This document shows positions 17,783 to 29,639 of a stretch of DNA of 64,000 nt, in pieces (position 1 is the stretch's first letter; every line of letters begins with the position of its first letter). Made by a program: the position numbers and the translations under genes. Below the pieces are notes generated by a model. It was not told the DNA's origin and made no database searches. It was given only the letters and a program-made list of their open reading frames with translations. The stretch comes from Microvenator marinus. Its GTDB lineage: Bacteria; Myxococcota_A; Bradymonadia; Bradymonadales; Bradymonadaceae. The stretch is taken from the NCBI RefSeq assembly GCF_007993755.1, contig NZ_CP042467.1, positions 5,728,001 to 5,792,000 on the forward strand, given 5' to 3'.

Positions 17783-18697
17783 ATGGCTACCGAGACGCAG
17801 AGTTTAGAGAACACCAATCCCCCGGTTTACAAGACGGGACGTGTGGATTTGATGGTAGGAAAGACCCCGTTGCGCCGATTGAAATCGATGGGCCAGGGGC
17901 GTTGTCCGATTTTCATCAAGATGGAAAACCTTAACCCTAGCGGCTCAATTCGAGACCGCTACATCGCGGAGATCGTGCTTCGCGCGATGGATGCACAATC
18001 GATCCAAGTCGGGGATGAAATCTGCCTTGCCGGGTTGAATGACTCGGCGGTTTCGGCCTCGTACGTTGCGTCGAAACTAGGCCTACGTTGTACAGTCTTC
18101 ACCCCTGAATCGAGTTCTAAACGCCTTTTGGAAACCTTCGAGACCTTCGGTGGTAAGATTGTTTGGACATCGGCGGCTGCCGGACTTCAGGGGGCAATTA
18201 AGGAAGCCGCAAAATGGGCCAGAGACGGAATAGACCGGCTTTACGTGGACGGCTATCGCCGCCAAGCGGTCAAAGATTCATACCGGTACCTCGCCATGGA
18301 AATCATCGAGTCGCTCGAGGACACACCGTTGGGAGGCTTTACAACGTCAGTCACGACGGGGGCCACGTTCCGTGAAGTCTCGAGGGCACTTAGGCAGATG
18401 CAGGCTAATCTGGAGGTCCGCGGCGCAAAACTTGAGGAGAATGAATTCGCGACAGCCGAAGAGAACCCTTATATCTCGTCGGTGACTCTCGCTCAGTTGT
18501 GGGAGATTCGTGACGAGATCTCCGAGAAAGAGGGCATATTGCTTGGACCGAAAGGAGCCGCCTGCGTTCAGATTGCGCTAGACTTGGAAGCTGAACTCGC
18601 GCCTGGGCGCTCTATCGTTGCCTTGAATCCGGACAGCGGGCAGCGATACATCGGTTGGGAAGATCGTGAACTTTTCCGTGCAAACACGTTCGCGTAA
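17783..18697 (+). CDS. Cysteine synthase-like protein lacking the PLP lysine
   Basis: 304 residues over the whole length of the CysK/CysM fold: VGKTPLRRL near 25, IKMENLNPSGS near 45-55, a glycine-rich C-terminal half, and the end motif NPDSGQRYI. In active members the motif is NPxxSxKDR, with Lys forming the Schiff base to PLP; here it reads NPSGSIRDR with Arg57 (codon CGA). The substrate loop SGNTG is replaced by GLNDSAV (84-90), and the phosphate-binding GTGGT loop by TSVTTGAT. It is therefore probably not a beta-replacement enzyme and may be a binding or regulatory pseudoenzyme. A strong ribosome binding site precedes ATG 17783. The JAMM gene follows after three bases. Confidence 0.82.
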   Translation: MATETQSLENTNPPVYKTGRVDLMVGKTPLRRLKSMGQGRCPIFIKMENLNPSGSIRDRYIAEIVLRAMDAQSIQVGDEICLAGLNDSAVSASYVASKLGLRCTVFTPESSSKRLLETFETFGGKIVWTSAAAGLQGAIKEAAKWARDGIDRLYVDGYRRQAVKDSYRYLAMEIIESLEDTPLGGFTTSVTTGATFREVSRALRQMQANLEVRGAKLEENEFATAEENPYISSVTLAQLWEIRDEISEKEGILLGPKGAACVQIALDLEAELAPGRSIVALNPDSGQRYIGWEDRELFRANTFA

Positions 18698-18700
18698 CCG

Positions 18701-19147
18701 ATGAACCCTTCGGCACTTTTGGAATGGACCTTGGATTCTGGGGTGGTTAAAGAACTCGAGGCTGCATGGCCGCTCGAGGGCTGTGGCTTCATTGTTGAGA
18801 CCGAAATGGGCCTGGCGTGGGTGAAAGCCAAGAACTGCTCAACAACCCCTCAGGAAGACTTTGAGCTCTCTCCTGAAGAGGTTATCGGGGTGCTAGAGGC
18901 ACGAGGTCTTGTCGCAATCGTCCATTCCCACCGCGGAGCTTCCACGCTGAGTTCCAAAGATATCATGGGCGCAACCTTTGCCTCGCCACAGGGGCGCGAA
19001 CCGTTCTATCCCGGAATTCTCTGGCTGGTGATTGGAATCAGGGACGGGAGAGTTGAGGAAGGCTCCGTCTGGAAAATCAACGGATCAAAAGGGGAGGGTT
19101 CATTGGCAGGTAATGCCGAACGCCTTGCCTTTATGTCTTGTCTTTGA
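18701..19147 (+). CDS. JAB/MPN (JAMM) family metalloprotease-like protein
   Basis: 148 residues. The prokaryotic JAB pattern can be followed: Glu26 in PLEGCGF, then an Asn/Phe segment (NCSTTPQEDFELS), then VAIVHSHRGASTLSSKD with His75, His77, Ser84 and Asp87. The usual motif is HSHP, seven residues, S, two residues, D; here the Pro is Arg and the gap is one residue shorter, so zinc binding is likely but not certain. JAMM proteins of this type release ubiquitin-like sulfur carriers from targets, as Mec does beside CysO and CysM in mycobacteria. The last 48 bases overlap the convergent gene. Confidence 0.75.
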   Translation: MNPSALLEWTLDSGVVKELEAAWPLEGCGFIVETEMGLAWVKAKNCSTTPQEDFELSPEEVIGVLEARGLVAIVHSHRGASTLSSKDIMGATFASPQGREPFYPGILWLVIGIRDGRVEEGSVWKINGSKGEGSLAGNAERLAFMSCL

Positions 19148-21157
19148 ACTCTCAGACTCCGAGTCGGAATAGAGAGCCGTTAGTTTTCCGCTCAGTAGTG
19201 CGGACGCAATGCTCACGCCACAACGCGCACCGTTGAGGCGTTCGTCGCAGGATCCGACCAAATTGTCCACGTGAGGTGGTGCACTCAAACAGGTGTTGTG
19301 GTCTGGGAGTTCAACCGGGCCTTTCTTTGCGCAATACGACTGCATCAGGCGAACCACGTCGTCGCGCGACTTGCAGACCAACCCGACATAAGCCTGAAGG
19401 TCCTCGGTCGAATCGGATAGGACCAGAACCTTTTTCATCAATTGAATCGCCGACTCTCCCAACGCTTCTTTTCCTGCCGTCTCGCTTGCTGCGGTTAGGA
19501 GTCCTTCCCCGGTCGAGCCGTGAACACTGCCGTTGGTGGGCGAGACGGACCACCATGCGCGGGATGGTGTGCCGTCTTTGGCCGCTCCCTTGGGAATCAA
19601 GACGATCCTCCCAAACCGCGTCACTTCTTGGCGAAGCGAATCCGAGCGAGTCTTTCCGAGTTTGAGTTTCGAGACATCTCTTAGATTTGACCGGTCAATC
19701 GTAAGAAGTTCCGAATCTTCAGTGATAGCTTTCTGGAAAACGGCAGATGCTGTCTGAAGTGGGACCGACTGAATTTTAGCCAAGAGCTGGGACTCGAGGT
19801 CTGACTCAAGGTAGCTGACAAGGGAGATCAAACCGGTGGCCGACGCGACGGGAACCCCTTGCCTTGGGATGGCCTCGAGTCCTGGTTGCATCAATCGCAT
19901 CCGCAATGCGTATTCGCCTCCGTTTCTCAGGAGGGCAGTGGCCACAATGCGAGGTTCTGTGTGGAAGGCTCGCGTTCCCATCGAAAACGCAAGTTCGTTG
20001 ACCAAGCGGTCTGAGTGAGCAAGGTACGCGTTGGAAATCGCGTATGGCAATTGACGATGCGCCTGATTGAGGAACGGATCTTGAGGAACTTTCGCCTCAT
20101 CTTGAATGCTATCAGCGAGCGCGCTCAGTGCAACCAAGCCGGAGTGCAATGAATTGGTCGCGCGAACCCGAGCGTACGTGGGGCTGATCTGCGTGGTGAA
20201 AATACCAATCGAGTAATAGACTTGGTCGAAGGAAAACACCGAGCGGGACTCACCCTCGGCCTCTAGCATAAGGCGGTGTTGGGTCTCGAGCCGGCCACGC
20301 TTCAACTTGATGCGAGCTTCTAAAGAACGAATATCGGCTTTCGGAAGATAACCGCCAGCCTTTGAGTCGTCTCCGATGTGAATGATGGGGCGGATGGCGT
20401 GATTCAACCGCACATCCTGTTCAAACGTCAGAGAGATATCTCGAGTTCCAAGGTGAGAGAGTGGGCCGGTGTATTGTCCAAAAGTCTTGATTTGTCCGTC
20501 CGCTAGAGCGGCCCGAAACTCGATCGACACCGAGGATTGAAGGTCATCCCAGAGCGTCGTTTCGCGACTTTTTGCCTCCACTGTTGAAGGTCCAAGGCCC
20601 TGATTGAAAATTGGGTCAACACCAAGCCACGCGCCATTGTCTTCGATTTCTAGCCACACGTGCTCGTCGAGAAGCGTACGATAGCGAGCAAGGACAGACG
20701 CATCGACGACAACCTTCTCGGAGCTCAAATCACTTGGATTGATGAGGCTTGCGCTGCCTGCAAAACGATAAAGGACCTCATCGATTTGGGACTCAGAGAG
20801 TTGTCCCCGAACGAAACGAGACTGAATGCCCTTTTGCTTAAAAATCTCGTGCAGAAAGAGAGCTTGGTCCACCGAGTTTCCGGTTAGATCTACGGCCACA
20901 CCTTCGGCTCCCCGCAGCTGACCCTGATAAGGCTGGAACTTGAGATTCTGTCTGGCCCACTTGAATATATCTGCCGCGCGCCTTGCACGAATAGACTTGG
21001 CTACAGACTCTAAAGTGTTGGCCGAACTAGGTTTGTCCAGGGTTCGCTGAAGGGACTTGGCCTTCTCCTGGACGGACTTCGCATCAAAGGCCTGCTGAGC
21101 CGAAATTGGCTCGATAAGAACGAAAGAAACCAAAAGGAAAAGAATCGCGCGCTTCAT
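19100..21157 (-). CDS. Exported transglutaminase-like protein without the catalytic cysteine
   Basis: 685 residues from ATG 21157, preferred over an upstream in-frame start because a signal peptide (MKRAILFLLVSFVLIEPISAQ) and the binding site GGAGGA fit it. Residues of about 55-190 follow the transglutaminase-like fold: GNSVDQALFLHEIFKQKGIQSRFVRG, then HVWLEIED with His167 and GVDPIF with Asp181. The position of the nucleophile Cys is Ser95, so it is probably not a normal thiol enzyme. The rest (about 200-680) has no domain I recognise. Four Cys in the last 80 residues may form disulfides. It lies 60 bases after ricT and overlaps the JAMM gene at its 3' end. Confidence 0.65.
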   Translation of the reverse strand: MKRAILFLLVSFVLIEPISAQQAFDAKSVQEKAKSLQRTLDKPSSANTLESVAKSIRARRAADIFKWARQNLKFQPYQGQLRGAEGVAVDLTGNSVDQALFLHEIFKQKGIQSRFVRGQLSESQIDEVLYRFAGSASLINPSDLSSEKVVVDASVLARYRTLLDEHVWLEIEDNGAWLGVDPIFNQGLGPSTVEAKSRETTLWDDLQSSVSIEFRAALADGQIKTFGQYTGPLSHLGTRDISLTFEQDVRLNHAIRPIIHIGDDSKAGGYLPKADIRSLEARIKLKRGRLETQHRLMLEAEGESRSVFSFDQVYYSIGIFTTQISPTYARVRATNSLHSGLVALSALADSIQDEAKVPQDPFLNQAHRQLPYAISNAYLAHSDRLVNELAFSMGTRAFHTEPRIVATALLRNGGEYALRMRLMQPGLEAIPRQGVPVASATGLISLVSYLESDLESQLLAKIQSVPLQTASAVFQKAITEDSELLTIDRSNLRDVSKLKLGKTRSDSLRQEVTRFGRIVLIPKGAAKDGTPSRAWWSVSPTNGSVHGSTGEGLLTAASETAGKEALGESAIQLMKKVLVLSDSTEDLQAYVGLVCKSRDDVVRLMQSYCAKKGPVELPDHNTCLSAPPHVDNLVGSCDERLNGARCGVSIASALLSGKLTALYSDSESESSKTRHKGKAFGITCQ

Positions 21158-21217
21158 AAAATCCTCCACATCATCGCTGACGCTAGCAGTCAAGCATGTG
21201 CGAGGCAAAATATCGCG

Positions 21218-28368: not shown

Positions 28369-29181
28369 CTAGGCTTGCACGAGCTTCGGAACAGAGTCGT
28401 GCATCTCCACGCGGGCCATATCGGTCTTAGGATCGTGGCCAAACACAAGCGTCCAATCCGACTTTGCTGCCTCGTATAGGACTTCGCGCTTTTCTTTTAC
28501 GGTATCGAGGGGGTTAATGTCGTATCCCATGACGTAAGGGTCTCGAAGATGCGATGTCGTCGGCACGAGGTCTGCCAAATGCGCGTAAACCTTACCCGAT
28601 TCGGTGGTCACCTTGACGACTTGCATTCCGAAGGTGTGGCCGTTCATTGGCAGTACTTCAATACCGGGAAGAATTTCAGCGATACCATCGATGAGCTCGA
28701 TTTCAGCCAATCCCTTCTCAAAGATTTCGAGCTCCTCGGGGCGATAGCTTCCCTGGTCTCTTGCGCTTGGTGTGTGAGCCCATCCCCAGTTGGCGCGCTG
28801 CACCCAGTGTTTGGCGTCTTTGAAAGTGGCCTGAAGCTCATTTGAGTCGTTCAGGAAACTAAGGCCGCCAGCATGGTCAAAATGCAGATGTGTCAGAATG
28901 ACGTGTTTGACGTTCAGGGGCTTCACCTCTGGCGTTGAGCCCACGATCTTGTAGATATCGCGCTCTTTATCGTTCCATCTCGTGCCCATGCCGACGTCTA
29001 CGAGGACGTCGTAGTCCTCGTAGCGGACGACCATGGAGCGGCAAGCTAGATCGATTCGATTCCTCTCATCAGCCGGATTGGTGCGCATCCAAAGCGGTTT
29101 TGGAATAATTCCAAACATCGCTCCGCCGTCGAGGGCAAACATAGATTCAACAAGCGTGAATACTTCGAGTGGTTTTGACAT
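28369..29181 (-). CDS. MBL-fold metallo-hydrolase
   Basis: 270 residues from ATG 29181 (a TTG at 29193 would add four); GAGG lies at the right distance. The metal motif THLHFDHAGG gives His98, His100, Asp102 and His103, with further candidates in NGHTFGMQ and HLADLVP. The overall layout resembles the AttM/quorum-quenching lactonase-like group, but that group is broad and the substrate is not readable. It follows an Rrf2 regulator after eight bases, suggesting joint control. Confidence 0.82.
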   Translation of the reverse strand: MSKPLEVFTLVESMFALDGGAMFGIIPKPLWMRTNPADERNRIDLACRSMVVRYEDYDVLVDVGMGTRWNDKERDIYKIVGSTPEVKPLNVKHVILTHLHFDHAGGLSFLNDSNELQATFKDAKHWVQRANWGWAHTPSARDQGSYRPEELEIFEKGLAEIELIDGIAEILPGIEVLPMNGHTFGMQVVKVTTESGKVYAHLADLVPTTSHLRDPYVMGYDINPLDTVKEKREVLYEAAKSDWTLVFGHDPKTDMARVEMHDSVPKLVQA

Positions 29182-29189
29182 GTGGCGCC

Positions 29190-29639
29190 TCAAATTTGGT
29201 AGATTGGGAAGAACTCACCGACGGGTTCCTCGGGTACGGCGTCTGCGATGGATTGAATCGTGTACGAGCCTAGAATGCGGATGGTGGCTTCCCGTATCTC
29301 ATTCCACACTGGGCTAAAAGCCATTTGTCTCGGAGTGGGTTCGGGGCCTCCAGAACGGTCCTCAATGGGTTGCGGGGCAACAGGACCCTCCATGTGGCGC
29401 AAGATTTCGAGGATGGTGATTTCGCTTGCTGGACGGGCGAGAACGTATCCGCCGTTCGCCCCTCGCTTACTTCTGACGAATCCACCTCGTTTGAGGTCAG
29501 CCATGATGCCTTCCAAGAACTTGCTTGGTAGACCCTCACGTTCGGCGATGAGCTGGATACTCATCGGGTCCAATGCGCGCGCTCCAGCCATTGTGACCAA
29601 GGCGCGAAGGCCGTACATCGTTCGTGCGCTAATTTCCAC
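29190..29639 (-). CDS. Rrf2-family transcription regulator without cysteines
   Basis: 149 residues. The winged helix fits Rrf2: MEISARTMYGLRALV, IAEREGLPSKFLEGIMADLKRGGFV, and the wing KRGANGGYVLARP. Members such as IscR and NsrR bind an iron-sulfur cluster through three Cys; this protein has no Cys at all, so it must sense something else (compare CymR) or use other ligands. It lies between the TSP3 lipoprotein gene (three bases) and the MBL hydrolase gene. Confidence 0.88.
   Translation of the reverse strand: MEISARTMYGLRALVTMAGARALDPMSIQLIAEREGLPSKFLEGIMADLKRGGFVRSKRGANGGYVLARPASEITILEILRHMEGPVAPQPIEDRSGGPEPTPRQMAFSPVWNEIREATIRILGSYTIQSIADAVPEEPVGEFFPIYQI

Follow-up and report, generated by a model that had tools for sequence, protein, structure and literature searches.

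Cysteine is made in Mycobacterium tuberculosis by a route that uses CysO, CysM and Mec (PMC3227635). A regulatory use of a cysteine synthase is the CymR-CysK co-repressor complex of Bacillus subtilis and Staphylococcus aureus (Tanous 2008, as cited in PMC4961446 and PMC12895370). CysK moonlights with regulators and other proteins through C-terminal isoleucine tails, those of CysE, CdiA, EGL-9 and CymR being known to bind it (PMC12895370, PMC4961446); the Ile carboxylate is held by Thr69 and Thr73 of the TSGNT loop and by a Gln (PMC9547175, PMC12895370), and a structure of CysK with the CymR pentapeptide is in the PDB (8t2c). Gene neighbourhoods that bring together ThiS/MoaD-like, JAB peptidase and cysteine synthase genes, with an E1+rhodanese gene and one cysteine synthase, are described in PMC1779556. 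Finally, the M. tuberculosis protein Rv3778c has a PLP fold without the lysine and is presumed to be non-catalytic (PMC12910592).

We analysed a 64,000-nucleotide stretch of DNA from Microvenator marinus (the window), in which a gene for a lysine-less CysK-like protein, here PALP-A, stands next to a JAMM peptidase gene. The PALP-A system is a variant on the known CysO-CysM-Mec and CymR-CysK systems. As in the M. tuberculosis route, relatives of the window genome carry CysO, a Lys-bearing CysM and a JAMM protein in one operon; unlike that route, their operon also includes a dead CysK and, upstream, an Rrf2 regulator, and the window genome is without CysO and CysM. The relatives also resemble the CymR-CysK case as cited above, in that an Rrf2-family regulator with a C-terminal Ile is encoded beside a CysK-fold protein, but PALP-A is without the lysine and the loop, the regulator falls below the CymR cut-off, and it is we who infer the interaction. 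The gene classes of PMC1779556 are found together in the PALP-A cluster as well, although no E1 was seen in this cluster, which has two synthase-fold genes, and the account of the neighbourhoods given there mentions no lysine-less synthase. Rv3778c, like PALP-A, has lost the PLP lysine and presumably catalysis as well, but it is related to cysteine desulfurases, whereas PALP-A is of the CysK type (beta family), a pseudoenzyme encoded in a sulfur-carrier operon. A search of the open literature turned up no account of a CysK without its lysine in an operon of this kind, which is weak evidence of absence.

PALP-A and the neighbouring JAMM gene

PALP-A matches PF00291 (PALP) with E=2.9e-33 in a profile search. 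Its AlphaFold model (pLDDT 82.5) has predicted similarity to CysK (8srt; Z 28.5, rmsd 3.8 Å, 274 residues) and to M. tuberculosis CysM (5iw8; Z 28.3), and the Pfam and structure matches together place it in the PALP (fold type II) fold; its score of 116 bits is below the curated cysKM cut-off of 344 bits. A scan of genome contigs with PALP-A found only a distant relative, at 25% identity. The PALP-A stop codon, TAA, ends at 18697 and the ATG of the JAMM gene is at 18701, with three bases between them, as the first-pass annotation had it. A transglutaminase-like gene follows on the other strand (Table 1) and adjoins the cluster in most relatives.

The JAMM protein is divergent. Its model (pLDDT 87) is predicted to have the JAMM (MPN) fold, with Z 12.6 to Pyrococcus furiosus JAMM1 (5lda) and rmsd 2.7 over 119 residues, and the residues E26, H75, H77, S84 and D87, invariant among the aligned members, are all retained; its Prok-JAB score is 20.5 bits, against a cut-off of 25. 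The motif spacing is HxHx6Sx2D where orthologues have HxHx7Sx2D, so the missing residue reported earlier is real, and the shortening between HxH and Ser is peculiar to the window genome. Arg does replace the motif Pro, as also reported, but this Pro is not conserved (P, A, V or C in other members).

Table 1. Positions of the features discussed; window coordinates unless locus handles are given.
Feature	Position	Strand	Basis or remark
PALP-A, CysK-like pseudoenzyme, 304 aa	17783..18697	+	ORF, PF00291, AlphaFold model, 20 full-length orthologues aligned
Arg57 codon CGA at PLP-lysine site	17951..17953	+	all 20 PALP-A have R, all 24 active relatives K
Former substrate loop (T)SGNT, here GLNDS	18032..18046	+	active relatives T/S-x-G-N-T; PALP-A G-x-[DNTS]-[DN]-S
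Arg159-Arg160, replacing x-Asn of QFxN motif	18257..18262	+	all 20 PALP-A have R160; all 24 active relatives have N
Former phosphate-binding loop TTGAT, first Gly to Ser/Thr (position 191)	18353..18367	+	alignment
GPKGA motif, Lys257 replacing Ser of CysK GxSSGA	18545..18559	+	all 20 PALP-A have K; the 24 active relatives have S or T
JAMM/Mec-like metallopeptidase, divergent, 148 aa	18701..19147	+	ORF, profile, alignment, model
Glu26, JAMM catalytic Glu	18776..18778	+	invariant in 13 aligned members
JAMM motif HSHRGASTLSSKD (H75, H77, S84, D87), one residue short	18923..18961	+	alignment
Transglutaminase-like protein, conserved cluster neighbour	19100..21208	-	context, outside the mechanism
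Rrf2/CymR-like regulator, ends ...FFPIYQI, candidate PALP-A partner (inferred)	29190..29639	-	
CysO-like genes inspected for extra residues past Gly-Gly	L034, L035, L036, L037, L038, L041, L045, L046, L047, L048, L138, L139		

The operon in relatives and its reduced forms

We searched 379 genomes of the phylum with a PALP-A profile, taking E of at most 1e-90 as a strong match. Strong matches were confined to the window's order, where they occur in 20 genomes of two families; G009 has in addition a partial gene (6e-51), and the next-best matches, at 2e-47 or weaker, bear the lysine.

The usual cluster in most relatives is [Rrf2/CymR-like regulator]-PALP-A-CysO-CysM-Mec, and the complete set of PALP-A, CysO, CysM and Mec is present in 13 genomes from both families. 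Most relatives have a Gly-Gly CysO; the CysO-like carrier ends in AIAGG, and its best solved relative is M. tuberculosis CysO (3dwg_C, 2.6e-21). The CysM of most relatives is intact, with the lysine in NPGGSVKDR and with SGNTG, and matches Escherichia coli CysM best and M. tuberculosis CysM also strongly; their Mec-like JAMM has the canonical spacing. The connection with the CysO-CysM-Mec route, proposed from the window alone, is genuine. As for a repurposed two-gene module, the pair is not conserved as one: genes of the Arg type are indeed conserved in relatives, but the pairing with a JAB gene sits inside the larger operon, where CysO and a live CysM stand between the two genes, and both have been lost here. 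CysO-like genes with one or two residues beyond Gly-Gly (GGRS, GGLR, GGKP, GGQS, GGEA, GGR) are numerous in the order; in these, the Gly-Gly end would first have to be freed by a protease, for which the JAMM protein is a possible candidate.

The cluster is reduced to PALP-A and JAMM in the window genome (G000). G004 has PALP-A, CysM and JAMM but no CysO; G001 and G012 have PALP-A with a loop-altered CysM, with CysO absent and no JAMM relative found; G023 has PALP-A, a carrier without Gly-Gly and JAMM, with no adjacent CysM; and G022 has PALP-A, a Gly-Gly carrier and a CysM with Lys changed to Ser, no JAMM being seen on the contig. These genomes are a stepwise series in the dismantling of the CysO-CysM-Mec pathway, and the series shows which part is kept last. 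G000, G004, G001 and G012 form one clade of the PALP-A tree (97/83), so the carrier was probably lost from their cluster once. The window lineage would then have lost CysO first and CysM later, along with the operon's own regulator, and kept PALP-A.

Individual genes in the series deserve mention. The CysM-like proteins of G012 (L125:5059-6006) and G001 (L126:844-1779) keep Lys, have TGSIG in place of SGNTG and are fast-evolving, with CysO and JAMM gone. The G022 gene (L138:6884-7966) reads NPGGSVSDR, a second, independent lysine loss, beside Gly-Gly CysO and PALP-A. The CysO-like protein of G023 (L044:7435-8328), without the Gly-Gly end (ILPSVIAQRRTA), belongs to another dismantled version.

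The absence of a carrier, noted in the first pass, extends to the whole window genome: family searches for ThiS, MoaD and CysO proteins gave only two ThiS-family matches, which are MoaD and the ThiS beside ThiG, and no Gly-Gly CysO. A Lys-bearing CysM is absent between the PALP-A and JAMM genes in the window, and the best match to the cluster CysM lies elsewhere in the genome, at 39% identity. Remnants of CysO, CysM and Rrf2 were sought around PALP-A in the window, with short chance-level matches only. A MoeZ-like E1 was considered as a marker of the CysO route; one is present in G000, but it is uninformative, because MoaD needs an E1 too.

The former active site

For the active site we compared 20 full-length PALP-A sequences with 24 Lys-bearing active relatives. 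Two early observations are borne out: in the window PALP-A the PLP lysine is replaced by Arg57, in the context NPSGSIRDR and with a codon, CGA, two changes away from AAA, and the SGNTG loop is gone. Counting the partial G009 gene, Arg occupies the lysine site in 21 of 21 readable members of the order, and the SGNT loop is found in none of the aligned PALP-A sequences. Across PALP-A the Gln of QFxN has become G, S or A157, the GIGAGF-bearing segment of CysK is missing from the alignment, and other former catalytic positions have changed as listed in Table 1. Judged by these sequences, PALP-A is a fixed pseudoenzyme and not a mutation, because Arg is invariant and further positions of the old active site, though changed, are conserved too. 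The single invariant residues across the changed pocket point to kept function rather than decay, and the rebuilt pocket is, by its sequence, basic in character. PALP-A has been kept after the carrier and the active synthase were lost in the window genome; its job is therefore probably non-catalytic, perhaps regulatory.

Origin of PALP-A

In another class (G228, G193, G456, G460) a CysK-like gene with NPGGS[IV]KDR directly precedes CysO, in the place of PALP-A, and an Rrf2 gene also precedes the first gene in G228, G193, G460 and G080. Positional counterparts that keep the lysine do exist, then, but in that other class; because they hold the PALP-A position, it is likely that Lys is ancestral and Arg derived. 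In the tree PALP-A is a single clade (100/100) with a long stem, beside those Lys-CysK first genes. A clade of PALP-A and the first genes including G080 is not rejected (p=0.28), whereas PALP-A with the four Lys-CysK first genes without G080 is rejected (p=0.001); G080, which is Rrf2-preceded and grouped with the first genes, was added to the test after the tree had been seen. The exact sister of PALP-A is in some doubt owing to the long stem. A recent duplication of the operon CysM was also considered as the source, and a PALP-A plus CysM clade was rejected (p=0.035). Gene order, with which the tree is compatible, indicates that PALP-A derives from the CysK-like enzyme encoded first in an [Rrf2/CymR-like]-CysK-CysO-CysM-Mec operon. 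The sequences show that in this order the Schiff-base lysine disappeared along with other catalytic features, which left a fixed pseudoenzyme whose rebuilt pocket is basic.

Rrf2-family regulators with isoleucine tails

An Rrf2-family regulator stands directly upstream of PALP-A in 12 genomes, in addition to the four first-gene loci named above; the full cluster occurs without an adjacent regulator in G003, G007 and G010. All 26 of the Rrf2 relatives found in these loci have a [YW]-x-Ile C-terminus, with tails such as FVYVI, FTYVI, FIYII, YVYSI, MYFI and IYQI; in this they resemble the tails by which CysE and CymR dock in CysK. Surveying Rrf2 proteins in 12 genomes, we found 14 that end in Ile, these being cluster-linked or of the PIYQI type, and 14 others that do not. 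The tail of CysE was dropped as a PALP-A partner, terminal Ile being present in none of the seven CysE proteins checked. The class has other families in which an Rrf2 gene encoding a YMYFI end directly precedes a JAMM gene, with no CysK or CysO between (L050, L051, L052, L132).

In the window no regulator stands before PALP-A, and the Ile-ended one that is present is not adjacent to it. The best equivalog family of this Ile-ended regulator is CymR, at 89.8 bits and so below the cut-off of 195. The nearness of the PIYQI regulator to PALP-A is partly due to general synteny with an MBL-fold gene. The MBL-fold hydrolase gene (28369-29193, minus strand) overlaps the PIYQI Rrf2 gene; several genomes have a relative of this hydrolase close to the PALP-A cluster, including where the Rrf2 gene is not close by. 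In G001 and G012 (84-87% complete), where PALP-A is present, the search found no Ile-tailed Rrf2. The window genome also has a true CysK, near 1840 kb and above the TIGR01139 cut-off, which could instead be the partner of the PIYQI regulator. Separately, a serine acetyltransferase below the CysE cut-off (G000:C1:1760141-1760623) adjoins a cysteine-synthase paralogue; G004 and G012 have this type too, and in G005, G007, G010 and G016 the corresponding protein encoded near a synthase gene is a canonical CysE.

The sites by which CysK holds an Ile tail are partly lost in PALP-A: Thr69 has become Gly, the Gln is G, S or A, and only the Thr73 position keeps a Ser. Docking of an Ile tail would thus have to use Arg57, Arg159 and Arg160.

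Constraint and possible functions

The reading we prefer, though we put it at somewhat short of an even chance, is that PALP-A is a CysK no longer capable of catalysis that has been retained for binding or co-regulation, with an Rrf2 tail as its putative partner. PALP-A would most likely be a binding protein and not an enzyme, as CysK is with CymR or CysE; the [Tyr]-x-Ile tail of an Rrf2-family regulator may dock in the former active site, and PALP-A, perhaps together with an anionic metabolite, might tune the transcription of sulfur genes. In the window genome the candidate partner would be the CymR-like regulator with the PIYQI tail. On this reading the attached JAMM protein would be a former Mec, left without CysO as its substrate and now either drifting or taking on another role. 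A more specific proposition, which we regard as possible but on balance doubtful, is an order-wide dedicated pseudo-CysK, its former active site rebuilt as a receptor for the Rrf2 Ile tail and/or a new anionic ligand and outliving its sulfur-carrier pathway. The moonlighting role appears here to be split from catalysis, a CysK without the lysine being kept across the order beside Ile-tailed regulators, and whether CysK regulation can stand without catalysis becomes directly testable with purified proteins.

A putative anionic metabolite may itself be the point. PALP-A could be a PLP-independent receptor or enzyme with a new site formed by Arg57, Arg159, Arg160 and Lys257, as the replacement of several catalytic positions by one invariant residue each would suggest; this is not a random pattern and is also seen in genomes without CysO. 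We consider this unlikely. We would give an equally low probability to a role for PALP-A inside the CysM-CysO-Mec machinery, as a scaffold or non-catalytic subunit that forms hetero-oligomers with CysM or holds the CysO tail; in the window genome it would then be a leftover of that complex. The direct linkage to the CysO, CysM and Mec genes in 13 genomes fits such a role, as does the known CysM-CysO complex of M. tuberculosis (3dwg), but PALP-A persists, with its pocket residues intact, in four genomes that have no cluster CysO (G000, G004, G001, G012) and in two that have no adjacent CysM (G000, G023). Nor does its relative rate rise like that of CysM in G001/G012 or of Mec in G000. Expressed as distance over RpoB distance to the carrier-bearing genomes (pairwise, with no formal test), the PALP-A rate is 2.8 for the window genome, 2.3-2.5 for the three others whose cluster has no carrier and 1.9-2.5 elsewhere; CysM is at 2.6-2.9 in G001/G012 against 1.3-1.8, and JAMM at 5.4 in the window genome and 3.0 in G004 against 2.0-2.6, so that the window JAMM is about twice as fast. 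PALP-A is at most slightly faster without CysO and did not join in the fast change of its neighbours.

The first-pass annotation had proposed that the neighbouring peptidase is controlled by PALP-A, to which a ubiquitin-like tail or O-acylserine-like ligand would bind. The two genes are adjacent in the window, and the JAMM fold and catalytic residues are there, but the adjacency is the product of losing two intervening genes. PALP-A is present in G001 and G012, where no JAMM relative was found, so peptidase control is not its common function, and other families have JAMM genes but no PALP-A. We hold this model to be very improbable. That PALP-A and JAMM in the window genome are a decaying, functionless remnant of the operon seems to us quite unlikely. 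No trace is left of CysO, CysM or the operon regulator, and the JAMM protein, which evolves fastest, keeps just 17 of the 34 columns invariant among its relatives; yet both reading frames are intact, PALP-A keeps 68 of the 76 columns invariant elsewhere, and the JAMM protein has all its catalytic residues.
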